Virus record (IMG/VR): IMGVR_UViG_3300037264_002801
Coordinates: 1-25,579 of that record
Origin: a virus
DNA: 25,579 bases
Reading direction: 5' to 3' (one strand)
Position numbers and translations under genes: made by a program. The notes beneath the pieces were generated by a model. That model was not told the DNA's origin. It was given only the letters and a program-made list of their open reading frames with translations, and made no database searches. Below, one piece after another: positions 8,917 to 23,403 of the stretch (position 1 is the stretch's first letter; each line of letters starts with the position of its first letter).

Positions 8917-9121
8917 GGACAACCTCTGCGTCCATCATGCGCTGTATGCGGGTTTCGAGCCAATATCCGAGGACCTCTTTCGAGGACTTGATGAACTGAG
9001 CCTCGTCAAAGGCAGGGCCGGTCTCGGACACATTTGCAAAAATGGGCGTGTCCTTGAAGTATACAGCTGCCTCAGCCCTTTCGCCTCGGCGTGTCAGGCG
9101 GAGCGTGAATGGGGTGGTCAC
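8909..9121 (-). CDS. Small hypothetical protein
   Basis: 70 residues from a GTG in a GTGA junction with the exonuclease; the longer frame upstream is shadow. The sequence has a short beta N-terminus (TTPFTLRLTRRG), then AAVYFKDTPIFANVSETGPA and a helical end (FDEAQFIKSSKEVLGYWLET, RIQRMMDAEVV). No cysteine, membrane or catalytic pattern is present. It overlaps the endolysin start by several bases. I do not recognise a family. Coupling on both sides supports it being translated. It might be a regulator or accessory factor of its neighbours, but nothing specific shows this. Confidence 0.65.
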   Translation of the reverse strand: MTTPFTLRLTRRGERAEAAVYFKDTPIFANVSETGPAFDEAQFIKSSKEVLGYWLETRIQRMMDAEVVRG

Positions 9122-9864
9122 GAGAGCCCCACCAGCGAGGCCTTCGCCCTGCTGATGGCCTTCTTGCCCCGGCTCCAGGCCCCGCACGATCCGCACTGGT
9201 AGCGCTGGTAGCGCACGTCTCTTGTCACCGCGGTGCCGCGCTTCTGCAGGTGCTTGCTGCCGCAGTTCGGGCACTTCTCGATGTCCTCGGGGTCGAACGC
9301 GCCCACGTTAGGGTGGTTGCGAACCCAGGGCTTCAGCCTGTCGTACAGCTTTTCGAGGAGCAGCACGTCCTGCCGGTTGTACTCCTCCATCTTCTTCCAC
9401 GCGTCGCGCTTGCGCGCCATGCAGTCCACCCACATCTGGAAGCCCGGGTGCCGCGTCTTCTGGCCGAGGCCGAGGGTCTGCGCGACGTAGTCGAGCTTGT
9501 TGATGGGGAAGCGGAACTTGTCGCGCACCACGCTGAGCAGGTCGACCTGCTTGTACGGCGCGGGTGGCTTCATGTTGTGCGTGATGAACTCCTTGTTCAG
9601 CGTCGGGATGTCGAAGTTCGCGCCGTTGTAGTGGACCACGGCGTCGGCGTCATCCAGCAGGCCGTGCACGGTTACGAGCATTTCCTTGGTGTTGCCGCGC
9701 TGCACCGACTCGAAGTGCGTCCCCTTCTCGCCGTACCACTTCGCGGCGTAGCACAGCACGTGCCCGTTCGCCACGATCTTGTCCATGCTGATGTTCTGCT
9801 GCCACATGCCCCAAACGTACGCCAGATTCGGTGCTGTCTCGATGTCAAGCAGGAGAATCTTCAC
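9118..9864 (-). CDS. DnaQ-like 3'-5' exonuclease with C-terminal zinc ribbon
   Basis: 248 residues, GTG start with GAAAGGAAA upstream. RNase H-like exonuclease motifs are clear: Exo I LLLDIETAP (Asp7, Glu9), Exo II VVHYNGANFDIPTLN (Asp85) and Exo III EEYNRQDVLLLEKLYD (Asp166). The region between holds a WVDCMARKRDAWKKMEEY helix. The C-terminus has a treble-clef/zinc-ribbon with Cys198, Cys201 (CPNCG) and Cys224, Cys227 (CGSCG), followed by a basic helix (SRGKKAISRAK). Such a two-domain protein is found in many phages and may proofread or resect nucleic acid. It lies between the HslV-like and lysis genes, not with replication genes. Whether it acts on DNA or RNA is not settled by sequence. Confidence 0.9.
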   Translation of the reverse strand: MKILLLDIETAPNLAYVWGMWQQNISMDKIVANGHVLCYAAKWYGEKGTHFESVQRGNTKEMLVTVHGLLDDADAVVHYNGANFDIPTLNKEFITHNMKPPAPYKQVDLLSVVRDKFRFPINKLDYVAQTLGLGQKTRHPGFQMWVDCMARKRDAWKKMEEYNRQDVLLLEKLYDRLKPWVRNHPNVGAFDPEDIEKCPNCGSKHLQKRGTAVTRDVRYQRYQCGSCGAWSRGKKAISRAKASLVGLS

Positions 9865-9905: not shown

Positions 9906-10358
9906 TCACTTCGGCTTGTCCTTCACCGACAGCACCTGGACTGGCAGCCCGCTGTGCTCGTCGACGCGGCACGCGAGCTCGACTGCCTCCTCCGGCGTCT
10001 TGCCGAGCAGCAGCGCCACTCGCGCCGGCTTGCCGCCGGAGCCGATCGCGAAGAACGGCTCGTCCATGCGCTCGGGCTCGGGGTCCTCCTGCGTGAAGAA
10101 GTACAGGCCGTCGTGCTTGAGCACCAGCGCCCACACCGCCTCCTCGCTGCCCGCCTCCTCGTGCCACTTCGGCGCGGGGGCCTTGAAGTCGCGCTCGGCC
10201 CACTCCAGAAGCCTGGAGCAGTCGCCGCCGTTGCCGCACGCGCCCACGATCATCTTCTTGACGCGCACGACCTTCACCGCGCGGTACGACACGCCGAGCC
10301 CGACGGAGACCTTGGAGTCCGAGGCCATCGTCTCCTGGTTCGCCGCGATGGTGGTCAA
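9906..10358 (-). CDS. HslV-like Ntn-hydrolase (proteasome beta-type peptidase)
   Basis: 150 residues from a TTG in a TTGA junction, with AGGA 7 bases upstream. A TTG start gives Met-Thr-Thr-Ile, so removing Met exposes Thr2 as the N-terminal nucleophile required by this superfamily. Supporting features are ASDSKVS with Asp14 (equivalent to the catalytic Asp of HslV), a Lys near 29-35, KMIVGACGNGGDC (35-47, matching the HslV GFAGG region), FAIGSGGKPARVALLLG (103-119) and EAVELACRVDEHSGLPV. Length is slightly below the roughly 175 residues of bacterial HslV. No ATPase partner (HslU) is seen here. It could mature virion proteins, act on a host protein or be a stand-alone peptidase. Family confidence is good; the target is unknown. 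Confidence 0.82.
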   Translation of the reverse strand: MTTIAANQETMASDSKVSVGLGVSYRAVKVVRVKKMIVGACGNGGDCSRLLEWAERDFKAPAPKWHEEAGSEEAVWALVLKHDGLYFFTQEDPEPERMDEPFFAIGSGGKPARVALLLGKTPEEAVELACRVDEHSGLPVQVLSVKDKPK

Positions 10359-10597
10359 GCGGGCTTCCTGCGGTCCAGCCAGACGTACAGCGCGAACGCG
10401 CCGGAGAACGCGGCGTCGGTCCACGTAAAACCCTCGACCCACATGGGCGAGAACGCGTAGGCCATGGCCGCGCCAGTGACCACGGCGACCAGCAGCCGCA
10501 CGCGGTGCGGCACTTCCTTCATGCGGTTGGCGTAGTGGCACATGCCGGCCGCGACTACAACGGCGAAGAACATCGACAGGGCCGCCCAGAGGTTCAC
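10355..10597 (-). CDS. Small membrane protein, holin/antiholin candidate
   Basis: 80 residues from a GTG in a GTGA junction with the preceding membrane protein; the upstream frame is shadow. Three hydrophobic segments can be drawn: residues 4-20 (WAALSMFFAVVVAAGMC), 34-50 (RLLVAVVTGAAMAYAFS) and about 60-74 (DAAFSGAFALYVW). A basic loop lies at 25-33 (RMKEVPHRV) and the C-terminus is DRRKPA. This size and topology match class I holins or their antagonists. Tight overlap with the larger membrane protein suggests they act as a pair. Its stop overlaps the TTG start of the HslV-like gene. No name can be assigned from sequence. Confidence 0.7.
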   Translation of the reverse strand: MNLWAALSMFFAVVVAAGMCHYANRMKEVPHRVRLLVAVVTGAAMAYAFSPMWVEGFTWTDAAFSGAFALYVWLDRRKPA

Positions 10598-11016: not shown

Positions 11017-11044
11017 ATTATACCTGAAAGTCAGTCCCTGCCCA
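11017..11044 (-). promoter_or_regulatory. Candidate promoter for the lysis region
   Basis: On the minus strand TGGGCA (11044-11039, 4 of 6 matches to TTGACA), a 16-base spacer and an exact TATAAT (11022-11017) lie at the end of the repeat-protein gene. Downstream is GAGGAGGGG and the ATG of a holin-like gene. An AT-rich hexamer is rare in this DNA. A sigma70-type host promoter is inferred. Confidence 0.45.
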
Positions 11045-13775
11045 TTCTCCAGACCGCGTCCCGCGCCTTCTGCGCGAACAGCACTACGCGCCGCGCGGTG
11101 CCCCACACCAGCGAGCCGCCGGCGGCGGCCAGGTCGGCCAGGATGTCCATCAGGCCGGCGAACGTCAGCGACCCGAGGAAGAGCTTGCGCACCTGCTTTG
11201 CGACGCCCCCCGAGAAGCTGAGGGCCGACGACAGCAGGCGGCCAAACAGCGGCACGAAGCCGCCGGCGAAGGCAATTATAGCACCAAGGGACTTGCTGGT
11301 GCGCTTGGTGAGCGCCCCGGCGAAGCTAAGCGCGGCATCGAGCGCCTTGCCAGCTCGGCCGCGCCAGGCGCCGGAGAACGACAGCGAGGCGAGGAGGTCC
11401 TTCAGCCCGGTGCGGACGAGGCTACCGGCGAAGCTCAGGGGCGCGGACAGGGCGCGGATGGTGCGCTTCGTGAATGCCCCGGAGAACGACAGCGCCGAGG
11501 CGAGCACGTGGGCGACGGCGCGGGACTGCGCAGCGCTGAACGACAGCGCCCCCGCCAGGGCTCGGAAAGTACGCTTCGTAAACGCGTCGAAGAATAGGGC
11601 GACAGTTGTAGTCTTAAGGTAGTGACCGAAGGAGGAAGCCTCCTCCAGTTGAGCCCCCCACACCATAAGATCGCCGGTTGCATCGGTAATATTTATGCCG
11701 CCGCCGATCAGGGTGGCCGCAGCGTCCCAGCCTGTCTGACCCTCCCACGTGAAACGCTGTGACGTGGTCGTTGCGACCATCTGGCCGGAATGCTTAGAAA
11801 CATAGAACACATCCGAGATTGCCAAAGTGAAGTCCTTCGTTCCGGACAACGCCTTTACCCAGATCGAAAAGGTATACGTCTTTCCAAACGGCGAGGCCGC
11901 TACGGCCTGTGTAAGCTGCGACCACCAGCTAAGCGTACCGGCGCCGCGCGTCATCTGGTCCATGCTCGTGGTGCCGTCTGGCGCGACCGCCTGGTCGGCG
12001 GTGACGCTAATGCCACCGTCTTTCGTCCATGCCGCGTTGTCCAGCTCCTCGCTTCTCAGGAGTAAATTAGCCCGCCCCAGCGGGCTTACCAGCGCAAGAA
12101 CGGCGGCCAGCGCGCGGGACGAGTGCTTGAAGAACGTACCAGCGAAGGACATGGCGGCGTTCAGGGCGCGGCTGGTGTGCTTCGTGAACTCGCCGGTCGG
12201 CGACAGCGAGGCCACGAAGCTCAGGACGCCGGTCTTCACGAAGGTGGCAGACGATGTCAGAACGGCGGCGAGGCTTCTGGCGGTACTCTTGGTCATCGCC
12301 GCGCTGAACGACAGCGCCGAGTTCAGGGGGAACTGCGAGATCAGGAACCGGCCGGTGAAGGACAGGGCGGAGCCGAACTCTACCAGGAACAGGCCGATCT
12401 TCTGGATGCCTATGTTGCCGGAGAACGACAGGACGCCGCTCAGCACCTTCAGCGTGTGCTTGACCAAGCCGGCAGAGAAGCTCATAAAAGCTGCAAACAC
12501 CAGCGAGACTGCGCGCTGCATGGCGCCTGAGAAGCTGAGCACGCCCGACATAGCGCGGCTGGTGCGCTTGAAGAACGTTCCGGCGAAGGACAGCGTGGCA
12601 GCCAGGGCGCGGCTAGTGAGCTTGGCGAACGTTCCGGCGAAGGACAGCGTGGCAGCCAGGGCGCGGCTAGTGAGCTTGGCGAACGCGCCCGTGAAGCTAA
12701 GAGTGGCGGCGAGCGCTCGGTTCGTACGCTTGACGAAGGCGCCGGAGAAGCTGAGGACGCCGGCCAGGACCTTGTTGGTGCGCTTGACGGAGGCGCCAGA
12801 GAAGGACAGGACGGCGCCGACCAAGCTTCGGAAGGTGCGCTTGGTGAATGCTGCCGCGAAGGACAGGACGCCGGCCAGCGCGCGGTACGTGCGCTTCACC
12901 AGCCCGCCGTAGTTCCACGAGATCTGGTTGGACAGGGTGCCGTGGTTGCCCTCCGGCGACGAGTCGTTGGCCGTCGTGCCCGACCCCTCGTCGAACTTCC
13001 AGTGGCCCACCAGGTTCGCGCTGTCGGTGTGCACGCCGATAAGGTCGTCGGCGATCTCGCCATCGGTGATGTAGCGGCTGTTGATGCGAAGGTCGCCGAG
13101 CAGGAAGTCCGCGAGCCCCTGGGCGCCGGAGTTGAGCGGATGCGAGTTTGAGGCCAGCGCGCCGCTGCCCACGGCGGCACCGCCAGACACTCCGTTCACG
13201 TGCAGCGTCCCGCCGGTGGAGGAGTTGTAGCGCCACACGATGCGGTGTGGCTTGCCAAGGCTCAGCTGGACCTGCGGGGACACGGCCTTCCACACGCTGC
13301 CGGCGTTGGCATACACGCCCATGTACTCTGGCGCGGCCCCGAACGAGTCCCCGAAGAAGTAGACGACGAACTGGTCGTCGATCGTGTCGACGATGCCCTT
13401 GCGCAGCGGATGGTACGCGTACTGCGTCACGGCCCGGCCCAGCGGCGTGAACCAGAAGCGCACGGTGATGTCGCTGGCGATGTCCAGCGAGGCGTCGTCG
13501 GGGATGGACAGGCTGCCGAAGGTGTTGAGGCGGACGGCGTGGCGCGGGTAGTTGCCGGAGCCGAAGCCGAGGAAGTACGAAAGAGACCCGAGCAGCGCGC
13601 GGGACGTGCGCTTCGCGACCGCGCCGGAGAAGCTAAGGACGCCGGCCAGCGCCTTGTTAGCCCGCTTAGTGAATGCCCCGGCGAACGACAGCGCGGCCGT
13701 CAGGCCCTGCGTGATCACGTTGCGGGGGATGAACCCGAACGGACCCCTTCCGTACGGGCCGGACCCGTATGGCAC
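11031..13775 (-). CDS. Large 18-residue-repeat protein with LamG-like and second binding domain
   Basis: 914 residues. The start is Gly/Tyr-rich (YGSGPYGRGPFG). Residues 28-75 hold about three 18-residue repeats. Residues 76-286 are a concanavalin/LamG-like domain (HAVRLNTFGSLSIPDDASLD, VWKAVSPQVQLSLGKPHRIV, LVGHWKFDEGSG). Residues 290-565 hold about fifteen further repeats such as VLSFSGAFVKRTNRALAA. Residues 569-725 are a beta-sandwich, carbohydrate-binding-like domain of the type seen in phage head-spike proteins (NLLLRSEELDNAAWTKDG, YTFSIWVKALSG, LMVWGAQLEE). About nine repeats follow to residue 875, then a helical tail. The repeats match those of the protein at 19296-20222. I infer a virion fibre or adhesin carrying two carbohydrate-binding domains on a repeat scaffold. 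No catalytic motif is evident. Confidence 0.85.
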   Translation of the reverse strand: MPYGSGPYGRGPFGFIPRNVITQGLTAALSFAGAFTKRANKALAGVLSFSGAVAKRTSRALLGSLSYFLGFGSGNYPRHAVRLNTFGSLSIPDDASLDIASDITVRFWFTPLGRAVTQYAYHPLRKGIVDTIDDQFVVYFFGDSFGAAPEYMGVYANAGSVWKAVSPQVQLSLGKPHRIVWRYNSSTGGTLHVNGVSGGAAVGSGALASNSHPLNSGAQGLADFLLGDLRINSRYITDGEIADDLIGVHTDSANLVGHWKFDEGSGTTANDSSPEGNHGTLSNQISWNYGGLVKRTYRALAGVLSFAAAFTKRTFRSLVGAVLSFSGASVKRTNKVLAGVLSFSGAFVKRTNRALAATLSFTGAFAKLTSRALAATLSFAGTFAKLTSRALAATLSFAGTFFKRTSRAMSGVLSFSGAMQRAVSLVFAAFMSFSAGLVKHTLKVLSGVLSFSGNIGIQKIGLFLVEFGSALSFTGRFLISQFPLNSALSFSAAMTKSTARSLAAVLTSSATFVKTGVLSFVASLSPTGEFTKHTSRALNAAMSFAGTFFKHSSRALAAVLALVSPLGRANLLLRSEELDNAAWTKDGGISVTADQAVAPDGTTSMDQMTRGAGTLSWWSQLTQAVAASPFGKTYTFSIWVKALSGTKDFTLAISDVFYVSKHSGQMVATTTSQRFTWEGQTGWDAAATLIGGGINITDATGDLMVWGAQLEEASSFGHYLKTTTVALFFDAFTKRTFRALAGALSFSAAQSRAVAHVLASALSFSGAFTKRTIRALSAPLSFAGSLVRTGLKDLLASLSFSGAWRGRAGKALDAALSFAGALTKRTSKSLGAIIAFAGGFVPLFGRLLSSALSFSGGVAKQVRKLFLGSLTFAGLMDILADLAAAGGSLVWGTARRVVLFAQKARDAVWRMGRD
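11601..12071 (-). other. Lower-GC domain cassette inside the repeat protein
   Basis: This stretch encodes residues 569-725, the second binding-like domain. By hand count, three 60-base lines within it hold 32, 30 and 30 G+C (lines from 11641, 11761 and 11821), against 42 in a flanking repeat line (12601). Boundaries coincide with the ends of repeats on both sides. I infer that it was acquired separately and inserted between repeats. Confidence 0.65.
12573..12685 (-). repeat. Perfect 54-bp tandem duplication within the 18-residue repeat array
   Basis: Positions 12573-12626 and 12627-12680 are identical base for base, and five further bases match at the right end. The unit encodes exactly 18 residues (SRALAATLSFAGTFAKLT in one register), so it adds one repeat without a frame change. 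Other repeats in the gene differ at many silent and coding positions, which makes this copy recent. Confidence 0.9.
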
Positions 13776-13777
13776 GG

Positions 13778-14344
13778 CTACTCCCGCCCCAGCTTCTTGT
13801 CGCGCTCCACCTTGCGCTTCATGGCTCGCAGGCGCTTGTCAACTCTGGCCAGCAGCTCGGGCGTCTCCTGGTGGTACCCCGCCAGGCCACCCTTGTCGAG
13901 CTCGTCCGCCTTCGTGCGGGTTAGGACACCGCCCGTCTTGGTGGCGAGGAAGTGCGCGTCGCGGAACTGCGGGCCGACGACGAACATGGTCCACGTGTCG
14001 GGCTGGGTGTCCTTGACGTTGTGCCACTCGTCGGGGCGCAGCAGCGCCACGCTTCCGGGGCGGCGCACCACCTCGCCGAACTCCCGCACCTCGGTGTACC
14101 CGCCGTGCAGGATGATCGACATGACCCATCGCCCGTGGTTATGCGACATCTCGTCGCGGAAGCGGTGGAGGATGTTGTGCAGCAGCACGTTCGGCCAGCG
14201 CTGGCGCACGCCGCGCCCAACGAGGAGCGGGTAGTAGCGGACGAACAGCGTGACGCCGTTGCGCAGGACGCGCAGGTCCTTGCGGCCCCTGCTGGCCAGG
14301 AACGCCGCGAACTTCTCGATGACGCGAAGCCACAGTCTTCTCAT
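13778..14344 (-). CDS. Cupin-fold protein, copy 3 (no Cys cluster)
   Basis: 188 residues from an ATGA junction with copy 2; the longer frame is shadow. It has an N-terminal helix (LWLRVIEKFAAFLASRGRK), then the barrel: WPNVLLHNILHRFRDEMSHN with His68 and His70 in SHNHGRWVMSIILHGGYTEV, RRPGSVALLRPDEWHNV (His108 third ligand) and TWTMFVVGPQFRDAHF. The cysteine cluster of copies 1 and 2 is absent. The final part is a lysine/arginine-rich helix (RLRAMKRKVERDKKLGRE). The RRPGS...RP-(D/E)-WH pattern is what I associate with common phage and bacterial cupin proteins. It ends 3 bases before the LamG repeat protein, so the trio may act on that protein or on a glycan it recognises. That is inferred from order only. 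Confidence 0.82.
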   Translation of the reverse strand: MRRLWLRVIEKFAAFLASRGRKDLRVLRNGVTLFVRYYPLLVGRGVRQRWPNVLLHNILHRFRDEMSHNHGRWVMSIILHGGYTEVREFGEVVRRPGSVALLRPDEWHNVKDTQPDTWTMFVVGPQFRDAHFLATKTGGVLTRTKADELDKGGLAGYHQETPELLARVDKRLRAMKRKVERDKKLGRE

Positions 14345-14964
14345 GCGATCCTCTTTCTGTACTCGGCGCTGGCCGCGTCTCTTGGCGGCGGGCGAATCCC
14401 CTTGCGCTCCAGCGCCCTCTGCAGGACGCGCAGCTTCCTCGTGGACTCGGGCGTGGCCCTGATCCACTGCAGCGCGTCGCCGCCGCGCTCGAATAGCTCG
14501 CCCAGCTCCATGGTCGGGTTGCGCACCTTGAAGCACGACGCGCCCTTCTCCTCGCAGGCGCTGCACAGCTTCGCGCACGGCTTGAAGTGGAACGTCCACG
14601 GCTGCCTGCGGAACCAGTGCGAGAACAGCGACCAGGTGCCCTTCTTCACGGAGTCCAGGCGGTGGTTGTCCTTGTGCGACAGGAACGAGAACCAGCGCAC
14701 CGTGCGCCTCGCAGCCCAGTTTACCACCTCGACGTACCCGCCGCGCAGGACGACGGCCAGCGTGGACCACGGGTGCTGGTGCGGGTCCTCCTTCGCGTCG
14801 GGGCTCTCGTCCATCGGGTAGTGGTGTAACCACACGTTGGGCCACGGCCTGCCGTCGCGCTCCTCCTCCTTCCACAGCAGGTCGTAGCGCTCCATGCGGA
14901 CGCGGCCGTAGCCGTCCACGAGCATGCTCTTGCGCCCTAGCCTCTCCAGCAGCGCCAGGATCAT
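14341..14964 (-). CDS. Cupin-fold protein, copy 2 (with Cys cluster)
   Basis: 207 residues from the ATGA junction with copy 1; a longer frame upstream is shadow. The layout parallels copy 1: an N-terminal LLERLGRKSMLVDGYGRVR, then WPNVWLHHYP, the HxH pair (His62, His64) in PHQHPWSTLAVVLRGGYVEV, His101 in KDNHRLD, the strand GTWSLFSHWFRRQPWTFHF, then Cys130, 134, 137 and 144 with exactly the spacing of copy 1. The C-terminus (about 150-207) is helical: an ELFERGGDALQWIRATPEST segment followed by basic residues. Strong similarity in the barrel and Cys cluster marks it as a duplicate of copy 1. It is probably soluble and cytoplasmic. The substrate is unknown; the cluster may bind zinc or iron. 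Confidence 0.82.
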   Translation of the reverse strand: MILALLERLGRKSMLVDGYGRVRMERYDLLWKEEERDGRPWPNVWLHHYPMDESPDAKEDPHQHPWSTLAVVLRGGYVEVVNWAARRTVRWFSFLSHKDNHRLDSVKKGTWSLFSHWFRRQPWTFHFKPCAKLCSACEEKGASCFKVRNPTMELGELFERGGDALQWIRATPESTRKLRVLQRALERKGIRPPPRDAASAEYRKRIA

Positions 14965-15611
14965 CCGCGCTCCGAAGCCATGCGCGACCTGACTTCCTCC
15001 GTGGACAGCTGCTTGACGCGCACGTCGGCGCTGGCCCTGCGTCGGCGCTCTATCATGGCGCGGAGCCCCGGCGTCTTGCTGAGGAACCAGCGCGCCGTGC
15101 GCCACTTGCCCTTGGAGCCGAAGAACGTGGCGTGCGGGACGGTGCTTACCTCGTTGTAGCACTTTCCGTACTTCTCGTCGCACGACGGGCACACGGCGGC
15201 GCAGGGCGCCAGCCTGAACAGCCACGGGCCGCGGCGCCAGCCGTGCATGAACGCGGTGACCGTGCCGGGGCGCACCTGCACCACGCGGTGGTAGTCGGTG
15301 TGCCTCAGCCTAGCGACGGTGCCCGTCTCGTGGAAGCGGTACTTGCCGTTGACCTCCTCCAGGTAGCCGCCGCGAATCATGTAGGAGTACGTGTTCCACG
15401 GGTGGCGGTGCGTGTCTGGCCCGTCGGGCGTGTTGAGCTCGACGTTCACGTGGATGTAAATGTTCGGGAGGCGCCCGATGAGGCGCGTGTCCTCGTCCTC
15501 CTCCATGAAGAAGACGTAGTAGCGGTAGGCGCGCACGTTGCCAGCGAAGTCAACCAGGACCTTCTTGCGGCCCATCCACTCCAGCAGCCTTAGGAACAAG
15601 TCTAGCAGCAT
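14961..15611 (-). CDS. Cupin-fold protein, copy 1 (with Cys cluster)
   Basis: 216 residues; ATG preceded by GGGAGG. After an N-terminal helix (LLDLFLRLLEWMGRKK), residues 50-130 form a single cupin barrel. It has the metal-type HxH (His68, His70) in THRHPWNTYSYMIRGGYLEE, the glycines of the cupin turn (GGY, 81-83), HETGTVARLRH and the third ligand candidate His108 in TDYHRVV. Residues 137-151 carry C-x3-C-x2-C-x6-C (PCAAVCPSCDEKYGKC), not part of a standard cupin. The helical, basic tail ends TEEVRSRMASERG. Known cupins include dioxygenases, epimerases and isomerases; which of these this is cannot be read from the motif. Two paralogues follow directly. A role in modifying a sugar or amino acid on the virion is inference. 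Confidence 0.82.
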   Translation of the reverse strand: MLLDLFLRLLEWMGRKKVLVDFAGNVRAYRYYVFFMEEDEDTRLIGRLPNIYIHVNVELNTPDGPDTHRHPWNTYSYMIRGGYLEEVNGKYRFHETGTVARLRHTDYHRVVQVRPGTVTAFMHGWRRGPWLFRLAPCAAVCPSCDEKYGKCYNEVSTVPHATFFGSKGKWRTARWFLSKTPGLRAMIERRRRASADVRVKQLSTEEVRSRMASERG

Positions 15612-15613
15612 AA

Positions 15614-16138
15614 TTACCTCCCGTGCACCAGCGCGAGGCTCCCGCTAGACAGCGTCACGTCGGTGTCGTTCGCGAAGGTCGCGATGGCTGGGGCGGCGAT
15701 CGTTCGCGCGCCAGCTGTCATCGTGCCCATGGCCAGGAACACCCGCGCGCCGGCGGGCACGGCGGCGCCCGCCCTCAGTGCGTACCTGTCTGGCATGCGC
15801 GTGCGATGCGAGGCCACGCAGTAGTAGCGGTTGCGTCCGGCGCCAGTGGCGGTGAACACGGTGATGCCGGGGCTCGCCACCGGGTACTCCGCGACTTCGA
15901 ATGACACCATGCCCGCTGTGCGCAGGAACGGCATGGGGAAGTCGGGGCGCAGCGGTCCCCCGACCCTGCTGATGGCGAACGATCCCTCCACGAATACGAG
16001 CGCCCCCGCTCTATCGGCCTCCGCCACGGCGTCCTCCGACTCGTAGGCGATGGAGTCGCCCGCGTTGCCGCTGAACTCGATCACGAGCAGCGGCGAGTTC
16101 TTCGGCGAGATGGTGCGCGCGGTGATGTGGCTCGTCAT
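15614..16138 (-). CDS. Hypothetical structural-type protein
   Basis: 174 residues, starting in an ATGA junction. It is beta-rich with alternating hydrophobic segments: LLVIEFSGNAGDSIAYES, ALVFVEGSFAISRVGGPL, ITVFTATGAGRNRYYCVASH and a C-terminal ATFANDTDVTLSSGSLALVH. Its arginine-rich middle (SHRTRMPDRYALRAG) may be a surface patch. No signal peptide, membrane segment or enzyme motif is seen. I do not recognise a family. It is followed by only 2 bases and then the first cupin gene, whose ribosome-binding site GGGAGG lies within this gene's last codons. It is therefore probably co-translated with the cupin trio and may be either the last virion protein of the fibre block or a partner of the cupins. 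Confidence 0.7.
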   Translation of the reverse strand: MTSHITARTISPKNSPLLVIEFSGNAGDSIAYESEDAVAEADRAGALVFVEGSFAISRVGGPLRPDFPMPFLRTAGMVSFEVAEYPVASPGITVFTATGAGRNRYYCVASHRTRMPDRYALRAGAAVPAGARVFLAMGTMTAGARTIAAPAIATFANDTDVTLSSGSLALVHGR

Positions 16139-20225: not shown

Positions 20226-20828
20226 TCATCGCTTGTGGAGGGTGACGGCCAGGTCCTGCGCCGCCTCCTTGAAGAACGACACGGCGTGCTGCTGGTACTC
20301 CGCGTTCCGGGACGCGACCATCGGGTGCAGGCCGTACCCTACGCCCGGCGGGTCGAAGTCGCACGTGAAGCCGGACACGTCCACGAAGTTCTGCGCGTCC
20401 CGCCAGGCCTTGTTCAGCTGGAAGAACCAGGCCTCGGACACCGGCGGGTGACGCGGATCGAGGTGCGCCTTGGAGGTGCACCAGTGGGGGACCACGACCA
20501 CCGCGGCGCCGTCCGGCTGCAGCACGCGGAACAGCTCGTTCATGAAGTGGGTTCGCGCGTCGACCGAGAGCAGGTGCAGCAGGTAGTCGCAGTTGACCGC
20601 GCCCACCGTCCCGTCCTCCCACGGCCAGGGCTTCGCCAGGTCCGCCACGACGTCGACGGACTCGTGCGGGACGACGTCCACGCGCTTGAACGTGCCCTTC
20701 GCCCACTCACCGGAGGCGTCGCCCACGCCCTTGCTGCCCTTGCCGGACCCTAAGTCCAGGCGCAGCAGGTCCGCCACGTCCTTCTTCACGTGCTCGGTGA
20801 ACTTCAGCTTCTTCGTCTTCTTCACCAT
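20226..20828 (-). CDS. Class I SAM-dependent methyltransferase
   Basis: 200 residues. The ATG lies 7 bases inside the glycosyltransferase gene; the longer frame upstream is shadow. The lysine-rich start (MVKKTKKLKFTEHVKK) leads into motif I LLRLDLGSGKGSKG (residues 21-34), an acidic-loop Asp51 (FKRVDVVPH), then DLAKPWPWEDGTVGAVNCDY with the LLHLL helix that matches the usual LEH-type region, and the strand after FRVLQPDGAAVVVVPH. The C-terminal third has a His-Leu-Asp-Pro-Arg-His phrase (122-127) and FTCDFDPPGVGYGLHPM. It is distinct from the other methyltransferase in the cluster: there is little similarity outside the fold motifs. No DNA-methylase catalytic motif is seen. Together with the glycosyltransferase it probably modifies a sugar or protein; the substrate is unknown. 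Confidence 0.88.
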   Translation of the reverse strand: MVKKTKKLKFTEHVKKDVADLLRLDLGSGKGSKGVGDASGEWAKGTFKRVDVVPHESVDVVADLAKPWPWEDGTVGAVNCDYLLHLLSVDARTHFMNELFRVLQPDGAAVVVVPHWCTSKAHLDPRHPPVSEAWFFQLNKAWRDAQNFVDVSGFTCDFDPPGVGYGLHPMVASRNAEYQQHAVSFFKEAAQDLAVTLHKR

Positions 20829-21544
20829 ACCGTGTCGTCCTCCAGGGAGTAGTGCCCAACCTTCACGCTGCAGTCCACGGCGCAGCGGTAGCCGTGCTTT
20901 CTCGCGTCCATCCAGAAGTACAGGTCCTGGGTGGCGACGCCGCCCTTCGTCTGCGTCTCGAACCACGGCCTGCGCAGGCGCTTGTCCTTGAACATCTCGA
21001 GGCGCCACAGGTTGAAGCCCATGCCCGTCCCGCAGCACTCGACCAGGCCGCCTGCCGGGTCTGGCATCTGGGGCCTGAAGTTTAGCACGGGGTCCTTCGG
21101 GTCGCCCCAAATCTGCGGCACTCCGCCCTCGCCCTTCGTGTAGTACAGGCCGCCGATGCACGACAGGCGCGGGTTCGCCTCCATGCGCTCGGTCAGCCGC
21201 ATCACGCCGTCGTACGGCGGCATGTTGTCGTGCTCGATCGTGAGCAGGTACTCCCACGTCGAGAGTTCGGCGTGCGCCAGGATGTTCTCAATGGCGAGCG
21301 AGTACGCCTTCCCTACCTCGGTGCCGACGGCGAGCAGGCGCGCCACCCCGTTGTTGGGCGGGTAGATCAGGTTCTCGTGGGTGTCGGCGACCTTCGCCGA
21401 GATGCTCGCGCCGGTGGGCTTCAGGCGGATGATGCGCTGGCGCTTCCAGGAGGCGGACTTAGCCAGCCTGGAGCGCGTCCTCTCGGGCGCGCCGTTGTGC
21501 ACGCCCTCCGTGTGCATCGGCTGGATCAGCAGCTGGGGCTTCAT
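20822..21544 (-). CDS. GT-A fold glycosyltransferase (GT2-like)
   Basis: 240 residues from the ATG overlapping the preceding stop (TGATG). The open frame upstream of it is shadow of the fibre-like gene. The DXD-type metal/nucleotide-sugar site is WEYLLTIEHDNMPPYDGVM, with Glu104-His105-Asp106. It is followed by GGLYYTKG, GTGMGFNLWR, an acidic QDLYFWMDARKHGY (Asp207 as candidate base) and a closing VGH (229-231). That order is typical of GT-A enzymes with a C-terminal metal-binding His. There is no signal peptide or membrane helix, so it should act in the cytoplasm. It lies between a fibre-like protein and a methyltransferase and overlaps the latter by 7 bases. The acceptor could be a virion protein, host lipopolysaccharide precursor or modified DNA base; the context favours the first, without proof. 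Confidence 0.88.
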   Translation of the reverse strand: MKPQLLIQPMHTEGVHNGAPERTRSRLAKSASWKRQRIIRLKPTGASISAKVADTHENLIYPPNNGVARLLAVGTEVGKAYSLAIENILAHAELSTWEYLLTIEHDNMPPYDGVMRLTERMEANPRLSCIGGLYYTKGEGGVPQIWGDPKDPVLNFRPQMPDPAGGLVECCGTGMGFNLWRLEMFKDKRLRRPWFETQTKGGVATQDLYFWMDARKHGYRCAVDCSVKVGHYSLEDDTVW

Positions 21545-22554
21545 CAGTACGTGGTCTTCTGGTAGTTGAGGTACAAGCGTCCTCTCCCGGTGGTTGTGAC
21601 GGGGCGAATGTCTGACGTCCCGAGCGACGCGAACGGCGCCGACGACGTGGTGTTGACGAAGCCGTGCCAGCGCTGCGCGTCGCTCGACGTGTTCGACACG
21701 GACTGCCCGAACAGCTTGTACGCCGCCAGCGGCGCCTCCATCAGGTGCATGCGCGACTGCGTCGAGAACATCGTGCCGGCGGAGTAGTTCGTGCCGGTCG
21801 AGCTCGAGGTGCTCCACATGGCGTGGGCGAGCCAGTACTGGTCTGGCTCCACCGAGATGTTGAAGCCGAACGGCATGAACCTGCTGCCGGAGACGCGCGC
21901 GATCGCGCCCGTGATCAGCGTGTCGGCGAACGTCGAGTTGAACGTGCCAGAGGTAGTCGTGCTGGTCGACCGCGTGCCCGAGGTAGTGATCGTGCCGTAC
22001 GTCACTCCGCCGGCCGCGTCCCACTGGGACGGGTAGGACAGCGTGAGGTAGTTCGACACCGTGACCGTGCTGCCGCCGCTTACGCGTCTCTCCCAGGTCG
22101 CCAGGATCGAGAAGTTCGAGCTCCAGATCGTGTCGAGGCGCGTGGAGCTCGCGCCCGAGCCGCGCTTGTACAGCGCCAGCATGTTGTGAAGCGTCTGGTA
22201 CCGCGAGACCGACCCGGAGGTGTTGTACGAGTACGGCGTGCCGCCCAGGAACCCCGCGGCGTCGGCCATGACGATGTTCAGCTGCCCGGAGTCCAGGCCG
22301 TGCGGGAAGTGCATCGGGTGCAGGTACCAGGTCCCGATCCCGTTCGTCGACAGCGACGAGTTCGAGTGGATCGGCATGACCGGCTCCCAGAACCCGGTCT
22401 CCACCCCGAACTTGTGGACGGAGTTCCAATCCGACGGACGCGCGAGGTCCGAGCCGTTGGCCGTGGTCGTGCCGCCGGTCGAGTTGGCGACCGTGACCAC
22501 GCCGGCCCAGTCGGCGACGGTGACGCTCTTTACGTGGGAGACCGCGAAGCCCAT
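21544..22554 (-). CDS. Fibre-like virion surface protein
   Basis: 336 residues, Ser/Thr/Gly-rich and beta-prone, with no long helices. The N-terminus carries NGSDLARPSDWNSVHKF (residues 33-49). This Pro-Ser-Asp-Trp-Asn-Ser-(Ala/Val)-His type motif recurs near the start of phage tail and fibre proteins. Downstream are aromatic-rich strands such as GIGTWYLHPMHFPHGLDSG and MPFGFNISVEPDQYWLAHAM, with a repetitive Ser/Thr tract (GTRSTSTTTSGTFNSTF). No catalytic motif or transmembrane segment is evident. It sits one base after a methyltransferase gene, and its TGA overlaps the ATG of a glycosyltransferase (TGATG). Because of that intimate linkage the Ser/Thr-rich protein could be a target of decoration. 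That last point is inference; the structural role rests on composition and the N-terminal motif. Confidence 0.78.
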   Translation of the reverse strand: MGFAVSHVKSVTVADWAGVVTVANSTGGTTTANGSDLARPSDWNSVHKFGVETGFWEPVMPIHSNSSLSTNGIGTWYLHPMHFPHGLDSGQLNIVMADAAGFLGGTPYSYNTSGSVSRYQTLHNMLALYKRGSGASSTRLDTIWSSNFSILATWERRVSGGSTVTVSNYLTLSYPSQWDAAGGVTYGTITTSGTRSTSTTTSGTFNSTFADTLITGAIARVSGSRFMPFGFNISVEPDQYWLAHAMWSTSSSTGTNYSAGTMFSTQSRMHLMEAPLAAYKLFGQSVSNTSSDAQRWHGFVNTTSSAPFASLGTSDIRPVTTTGRGRLYLNYQKTTY

Positions 22555-22555
22555 G

Positions 22556-23122
22556 TCAGAGCCCCAGCGCCTTGCGCTGCGCCTTCGTCGGCTTGCCCAC
22601 GAAGGCGAAGGCCTGCAGGTTGGCGTAGCCGTCGCGGGCCGTCAGCACCGTGGCGAAGCCCGCCTTAGTGAGGGCCTTGGCGAGGGACTTCTCGGAGAAC
22701 CCGGTCTTGTGGCAGTAGTGCATGTTGTCCTCCGACACGTAGAGGCCCCAGCCGTACAGCACGTCGTGGAACGTGATCGGGTTCGCCCCGGCCATGTACC
22801 ACACGTCGTCGATGTCCCTGTCCGCCGCGAGCTCGAACAGGCGCTGCATGTCCGGCACGACGACCTCGGCGAAGCCGTCCTTCTTCAGCACGTGCCCGAA
22901 GCCGCGCAGCACGCCGTCCACCTCGTGCTTGTGGAAGTGCTCCAGGTTATGCGAGCACAGGACAGCGTCATACCCGCCGGGCGGCAGCGTCCCCATTTTC
23001 CTCGCGTCGCACAAGATGTCCGGGTTCACGTCTTTGTCGATGTCCAGTAGGTCCTGCGCCCACCCCTTGTAGTGAGCCGGCAGCTGGCGGATTGGTCCGC
23101 CCCCCACGTTAAGTACTCTCAC
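22556..23122 (-). CDS. Class I SAM-dependent methyltransferase (methyltransf_11-like)
   Basis: 188 residues from a GTG start inside the GTGA junction with the preceding gene. AAGGA lies just upstream and no upstream alternative reads as protein. The SAM-binding motif I is RVLNVGGGPI (residues 2-11). A motif II-like acidic segment follows (LLDIDKDVNPDILCDARKM), then the characteristic YDAVLCSHNLEHF (51-63), and a post-motif strand GFAEVVVPDM after the helix that ends HVLKKDG. The C-terminal half (about 95-188) includes ITFHDVLYGWGLYVSEDNMH and a final GFATVLTARDGYANLQAFAF strand pair. The fold is that of small-molecule or sugar methyltransferases rather than DNA methyltransferases, because no DPPY or PC motif is present. 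Its neighbours are a fibre-like protein and a glycosyltransferase, so glycan methylation is an attractive but unproven role. Confidence 0.88.
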   Translation of the reverse strand: MRVLNVGGGPIRQLPAHYKGWAQDLLDIDKDVNPDILCDARKMGTLPPGGYDAVLCSHNLEHFHKHEVDGVLRGFGHVLKKDGFAEVVVPDMQRLFELAADRDIDDVWYMAGANPITFHDVLYGWGLYVSEDNMHYCHKTGFSEKSLAKALTKAGFATVLTARDGYANLQAFAFVGKPTKAQRKALGL

Positions 23123-23403
23123 AGGTCCTTCACCTGCAGGATTCCCTCTCCCTCCAGGATGTTGCTCTGGTTCGTCGTCACGCGGATCGTGATCTTGTAG
23201 CGAATCCCGGCGGTGCCGCCCAGGATGCGCTGCTGCGCCAGCGGGCCCACGATGGTGGGGCTGCCGCTGAACGTCAGGCCGGCGACGTCCGCGGTGACGG
23301 AGTCGACCGTCGCCAGGTCCTCGTTCACGGCCAGCAGCGCCGAGAAGTCGAAGGCGTACAGGCGGCTCTCGGCCGGCTGCTTGATCAGGGTCTCGATGGC
23401 CAT
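23119..23403 (-). CDS. Small virion structural protein
   Basis: 94 residues, starting at the ATG that shares a base with the adaptor gene's TGA. The open frame extends further upstream, but that extension overlaps the adaptor gene and is low-complexity shadow sequence. The sequence runs MAIETLIKQPAESRLYAFDF at the start, a GLTFSGSPTIVGPLAQQRIL strand region in the middle and a GGTAGIRYKITIRVTTNQ strand near the end. This is a small all-beta, Ig-like layout seen in many phage structural operons, where it usually carries no specific name. It overlaps the following methyltransferase by 4 bases (GTGA). The likely role is a tail or head surface component. There are no catalytic residues. Confidence 0.78.
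   Translation of the reverse strand: MAIETLIKQPAESRLYAFDFSALLAVNEDLATVDSVTADVAGLTFSGSPTIVGPLAQQRILGGTAGIRYKITIRVTTNQSNILEGEGILQVKDL

Follow-up and report, generated by a model that had tools for sequence, protein, structure and literature searches.

Bacterial 3-hydroxyanthranilate dioxygenase is a cupin that carries a C-terminal rubredoxin-like iron site of four cysteines (Cys4). In 3-hydroxyanthranilate 3,4-dioxygenase, the cysteines are arranged as two CX2C pairs and the metal ligands are His/Glu/His. Three-His metal sites occur beyond the thiol dioxygenases. The thiol dioxygenases themselves also have such a site (PMC8503633). Cupin sugar isomerases and cupin-like hydroxylases of cyanophage sugar clusters are named in one review (PMC7824862). 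A search of papers on phage cupins yielded nothing about the PHROG 4786 family. Here, we describe three genes of this family that stand in tandem in a 25,579-nucleotide stretch of viral DNA (hereafter the window, meaning the whole stretch analysed), two of which encode a cupin followed by four conserved cysteines.

A cupin trio in a virion-gene region

The phage of the window is distantly related to MW202615 and to Pseudomonas phages of the KPP25/LKA5 type. In MW202615, the nearest known phage, the capsid gene and the head-closure gene lie within ~2 kb; in the window, fibre and accessory genes fill the ~16 kb from the neck genes to the head-closure gene. The features that bear on the trio are as follows.

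11031 to 13775, minus strand: LSF-repeat / LamG-like fibre protein, downstream of the trio and 2 bases past copy 3 (ORF; only weak PHROG and Pfam matches)
13778 to 14344, minus strand: copy 3, a 188-aa cupin without cysteines (ORF; PHROG 4786, E = 4.5e-17)
14341 to 14964, minus strand: copy 2, a 207-aa cupin with a Cys4 tail (ORF; PHROG 4786, E = 2e-16)
14533 to 14577, minus strand: CX3CX2CX6C of copy 2 (Cys130, 134, 137 and 144), invariant against copy 1 and a homologue on contig L010
14961 to 15611, minus strand: copy 1, a 216-aa cupin with a Cys4 tail (ORF; PHROG 4786, E = 3.2e-15)
15159 to 15203, minus strand: CX3CX2CX6C of copy 1 (Cys137, 141, 144 and 151), invariant against copy 2 and the L010 homologue
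15288 to 15290, minus strand: third putative metal-ligand histidine of copy 1 (His108), invariant in 45/45 relatives
15402 to 15410, minus strand: HxH of copy 1 (His68 and His70), invariant in 45/45 relatives
15614 to 16138, minus strand: 174-aa product of the gene immediately upstream of copy 1, without a family match
20226 to 20825, minus strand: SAM methyltransferase of the fibre cassette (Pfam Methyltransf_11, E = 1.2e-5)
20822 to 21571, minus strand: possible glycosyltransferase of the fibre cassette, a weak call (PHROG 12406, E = 8e-4)
22556 to 23137, minus strand: second SAM methyltransferase of the fibre cassette (Pfam Methyltransf_23, E = 5.7e-7)

From copy 1 to copy 2 to copy 3, every start ATG shares four bases with the preceding stop (ATGA overlap), and the three genes are translationally coupled. 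The G+C content of the trio (67.0%) was close to that of the whole window (67.3%). The motifs given in the original prediction were exact on recomputation: in copies 1, 2 and 3, respectively, HxH lies at residues 68/70, 62/64 and 68/70, GGY at 81, 75 and 81, and the third histidine at 108, 101 and 108. Recomputation also returned the CX3CX2CX6C cluster in copies 1 and 2, where it holds all the cysteines of both proteins, and its absence from copy 3, which has zero cysteines. The tandem arrangement of three cupin genes is unusual. The placement of the trio inside a virion operon held, since profile matches showed that the flanking virion genes are real; the LamG domain assigned to the neighbouring fibre protein did not, as Pfam does not reach LamG at E 0.01 and the label describes appearance only. 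In addition, a Pfam search of the product of 20822 to 21571 gave no glycosyltransferase match. The strand run of virion genes also holds an exonuclease-like protein (9118 to 9864, minus strand; PHROG 403, E = 4.5e-93) and an HslV-like peptidase (9906 to 10427, minus strand; PHROG 1040, E = 2e-29).

Phage and cellular members of the family

All three copies matched PHROG 4786 over the core (E 3e-15 to 5e-17). In Pfam, copy 3 matched AraC_binding, a domain of cupin fold (E = 9e-5), just above the gathering score of that family, and copies 1 and 2 matched zero families. The NCBIfam search of copies 1, 2 and 3 and the defence-gene library search with the trio gave no match. Relatives were found in Mycobacterium, Gordonia, Pseudomonas, Caulobacter, Burkholderia and other phages, and further relatives are encoded on many IMG/VR contigs; the IMG/VR protein-pattern scans, run with one copy at a time as the query, found no relative. 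These results show that the cupin part of each copy does not stand out within this common and uncharacterised phage family. Like the trio, members such as those of Mycobacterium phages Rey and Bongo and Pseudomonas phage vB_PpuP-BotAed have the cupin core, GGY, His54/68/70/108 and Glu85. Unlike copies 1 and 2, they usually occur as one copy near replication genes and end in a short WGF...GW...Y tail, which is typical of the family and stands in the place of Cys4. In other phages, relatives are mostly found close to genes for replication or DNA modification and away from virion genes.

Two phage loci of the family are noted in passing. The cupin gene of Pseudomonas phage SC_8_H2H8_2017 has a reverse transcriptase gene directly upstream (L006:3553-4713; YVDD motif, GLPIGNLSSQ); a simple motif check of the other examined loci found no reverse transcriptase beside a cupin. 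One phage contig encodes two family cupin cores (L012:1-204 and L012:2635-3162), the first at the contig end, and the pair may be either another duplication or an end repeat of the assembly.

The family was also found in cells. Four matches turned up among 385 alphaproteobacterial genomes searched, three of them in small genomes. In the order to which one match belongs, which is probably the Pelagibacterales (SAR11), 92 of 117 genomes had one copy; these genomes are 0.7-1.5 Mb (L213, L214, L215, L232-L241). The neighbourhood in one clade is often acnA-yfgM-bamB-cupin-zapE-yjbQ, with the gene names read from ORFs. The alphaproteobacterial cupin shares the N-terminal GRKK..LD...RYY region and the cupin motifs with the trio but differs from copies 1 and 2 in the absence of the Cys4 tail from the sequences inspected. 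With the family near-universal as a single gene in this probable SAR11 order, assaying any one member would be informative for phages and hosts alike. At L214:5974-9578, the cupin overlaps a nucleosidase-like gene that is followed by aldolase-, IolB- and PfkB-like genes (assigned by eye), and this cluster might be a deoxysugar salvage operon.

The four-cysteine tail and the relationships of the copies

Outside the window, the Cys cluster was found in a single gene, at positions 7992-8681 of contig L010 (L010:7992-8681; IMGVR_UViG_3300035670_000345). Its product is a homologue of copies 1 and 2 (35% and 32% identity, respectively) along almost all of its length, the tail beyond the Cys cluster included. 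The four cysteines occupy an equivalent place and are invariant in the alignment of the three proteins, although the L010 gene is a single copy in an otherwise unrelated phage and its spacing is CX3CX2CX5C, with CX5C where copies 1 and 2 have CX6C. Since a relative at 35% identity keeps the cluster in the same place, the four cysteines are conserved as originally proposed and are not a chance pattern. Furthermore, an exact DNA pattern scan of IMG/VR for H..R..PW-x6-CX3CX2C gave 23 matches, and a family member was encoded only on the L010 contig; the same scan of genome contigs returned no credible family member among the matches listed. The Cys4 subfamily thus looks rare in IMG/VR. A structure from an uncultured Caudovirales phage (BFVD A0A6J5MJJ8; 237 aligned columns, 29% identity) may be a further member. 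Taken together, these results show the Cys4 tail to be a real but rare variant that is conserved within its subfamily, and it offers a handle on the function of one branch of the family. A radical SAM reading of CX3CX2C was considered and rejected, as copies 1 and 2 had no Pfam match and the cupin fold precedes the motif.

The claim that such a cluster has no place in the usual cupin was too strong: a Cys4-tailed cupin is not unprecedented, because bacterial 3-hydroxyanthranilate dioxygenase has a four-Cys tail. The Cupriavidus metallidurans 3-hydroxyanthranilate 3,4-dioxygenase resembles copies 1 and 2 as a monocupin with four C-terminal cysteines, and the enzyme was a top fold match, with a weak sequence match (E = 0.39). 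The two differ in that copies 1 and 2 have CX3CX2CX6C in place of its two CX2C pairs. Nor did the copies appear to belong to this enzyme family, with no match to Pfam (3-HAO) or NCBIfam and no motif-1 glutamate.

The L010 gene lies in a T4-like region between an S74-type fibre gene (assigned by reading) and gp25/gp6 baseplate genes. The cupin is the sole protein common to the window and the L010 stretch examined; an upstream gene was suspected to be shared as well and was rejected. The suggestion that the combination recurs in other phages beside LSF-repeat proteins was borne out in one other phage for a fibre gene, through L010, and not for LSF-repeat proteins, the L010 neighbour being an S74-type fibre. 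The strongest argument for a virion-related role is the presence of a Cys4 cupin in the virion regions of two unrelated phages.

Copies 1 and 2 share 37-40% identity (E = 2e-34), and copies 3 and 2 share 29-32% (E = 2.7e-6). Copies 1 and 2 and the L010 gene formed a clade with a support of 100, in which copies 1 and 2 were sisters with a support of 96. In the best tree, copy 3 was placed on a long branch apart from them, and BLASTP of copy 3 ranked L011, the L010 gene and the phage Rey protein above copies 1 and 2. Homologues from other phages are at least as close to copy 3 as its two window neighbours are. The description of the trio as three paralogues is sound as to homology, and the tree and BLASTP speak against copy 3 as a close sister of the other two. 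These results also bear on whether the trio arose by recent local triplication and forms a heteromer. The genes are adjacent with coupled starts, and monophyly of the three window copies was not rejected by the AU test (p 0.14-0.17, with 0.14 for the trio). However, the position of copy 3 in the best tree and the higher BLASTP rank of proteins from other phages argue against such an origin, as does the 37% identity between copies 1 and 2, which are about as distant from each other as either is from the L010 gene. We consider a recent triplication that yields a heteromer quite unlikely.

Predicted fold, metal site and candidate roles

Copy 1 was modelled with AF2 on a 37-row family alignment, which replaced an alignment of three sequences only (mean pLDDT 39.7); copies 2 and 3 were assigned the fold by homology. 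The model had a mean pLDDT of 77.9, with 92-98 over most of the barrel core and a pTM of 0.70, and the C-terminal Cys region was at pLDDT 39-76. Foldseek searches of the PDB with this model gave nearly all cupins (E 2e-5 to 2e-4), including KdgF, 3-hydroxyanthranilate dioxygenase, phosphoglucose isomerase, quercetinase, oxalate decarboxylase, CENP-C and other cupins. In VIA-align, phosphomannose isomerases scored highest (Z up to 11.2 over ~100 residues) and were closely followed by many cupins. As originally predicted, copy 1 is thus confidently modelled as a double-stranded beta-helix cupin barrel. Matches by fold to many enzyme types do not name a reaction.

His54, His68, His70, His108 and Glu85 (copy 1 numbering, as above) were invariant in 45/45 relatives and GGY was nearly so, and the HxH and third histidine of the original prediction are accordingly a conserved set. 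Cupins usually have a glutamate 4-5 residues past HxH in motif 1; at these positions (74/75), the 45 relatives have mainly F, A, Y, R, I or V rather than an acidic residue. Because this glutamate is missing, the site would be of the three-His type, and the invariant His/Glu set is the pattern expected of an enzyme with such a metal site.

PHROG 4786 carries the label 'cysteine dioxygenase', a name copied to many phage records, and the predicted three-His site is one that thiol dioxygenases also have (PMC8503633), so that the proteins might oxidise cysteine or a protein N-terminal cysteine. However, no cysteine dioxygenase (CDO) model in Pfam or NCBIfam matched the copies up to E 10, and CDO was not among the fold matches listed. 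The second motif of CDO is G...PxG..H...N, and it is absent from the conserved columns. A thiol dioxygenase function is therefore improbable, and a widespread phage cupin family bears an enzyme name that its sequence does not support.

The gene neighbourhoods of the relatives raise another explanation, in which the family is a nucleotide- or DNA-modification accessory and three copies have moved into a virion region. Neighbours of the relatives include DnaB helicases, DNA polymerases, DNA methyltransferases, queuine tRNA-ribosyltransferase and IMP dehydrogenase, and the nucleoside dehydratase Pac13 was among the fold matches. Phage early regions are, however, rich in such genes and the neighbour tally covers the relatives alone; moreover, both phages with Cys4 members encode them among virion genes, and the bacterial relatives without the cysteines adjoin unrelated housekeeping genes. 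We regard this explanation as unlikely. Non-catalytic roles, such as a chaperone, a decoration protein or a sugar-binding cupin associated with the virion or its fibres, with the Cys4 knob as a docking element, were judged no more probable. They would suit the position of the trio directly between the fibre gene and another probable virion gene and that of the L010 gene between fibre and baseplate genes, and non-enzymatic cupins exist, as the match to CENP-C illustrates. Against them stand the four histidines and one glutamate, which are invariant in 45 sequences of varied context and resemble an active site.

We therefore lean, tentatively, towards the trio being PHROG 4786 monocupins of three-His type that tailor groups destined for the virion fibres or the host surface, with Cys4 in a stabilising or docking part. 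Each copy would hold a single predicted metal site formed by His68, His70 and His108, with His54 and Glu85 probably lining the pocket; the metal would most likely be Fe(II), and the site is presumed to be catalytic. The usual tail of the family is replaced in copies 1 and 2 by a longer C-terminal domain, which the four cysteines would nucleate. Cys4 most likely holds structural zinc, or rubredoxin-like iron as in the bacterial dioxygenase, and the domain would give stability or contact with a partner. The substrate may be a sugar, an amino acid or another small group. Tailoring is plausible because the weakly called glycosyltransferase and the two methyltransferases lie nearby, and a fibre cassette of this content is compatible with glycan tailoring. 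KdgF and the cupin sugar isomerases were among the best fold matches to copy 1 but are only 7-19% identical to the trio, showed no subfamily motifs in common with it and lack Cys4. The location of most phage relatives near replication or DNA-modification genes and the weakness of the glycosyltransferase call count against tailoring, and our confidence in a glycan or small-molecule tailoring role is moderate to low. A bolder form of this proposal is a two-metal phage enzyme that would build an undescribed decoration of the virion in concert with copy 3 and the transferases encoded nearby, its three-His catalytic iron drawing electrons or iron from a separate iron or iron-sulphur centre at Cys4; we hold this to be very improbable.

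Among viral structures, the second-best fold match was a Fadolivirus protein named Nudix ADP-ribose pyrophosphatase (BFVD A0A7D3QW33; 25% identity), which is possibly a cupin-Nudix fusion.
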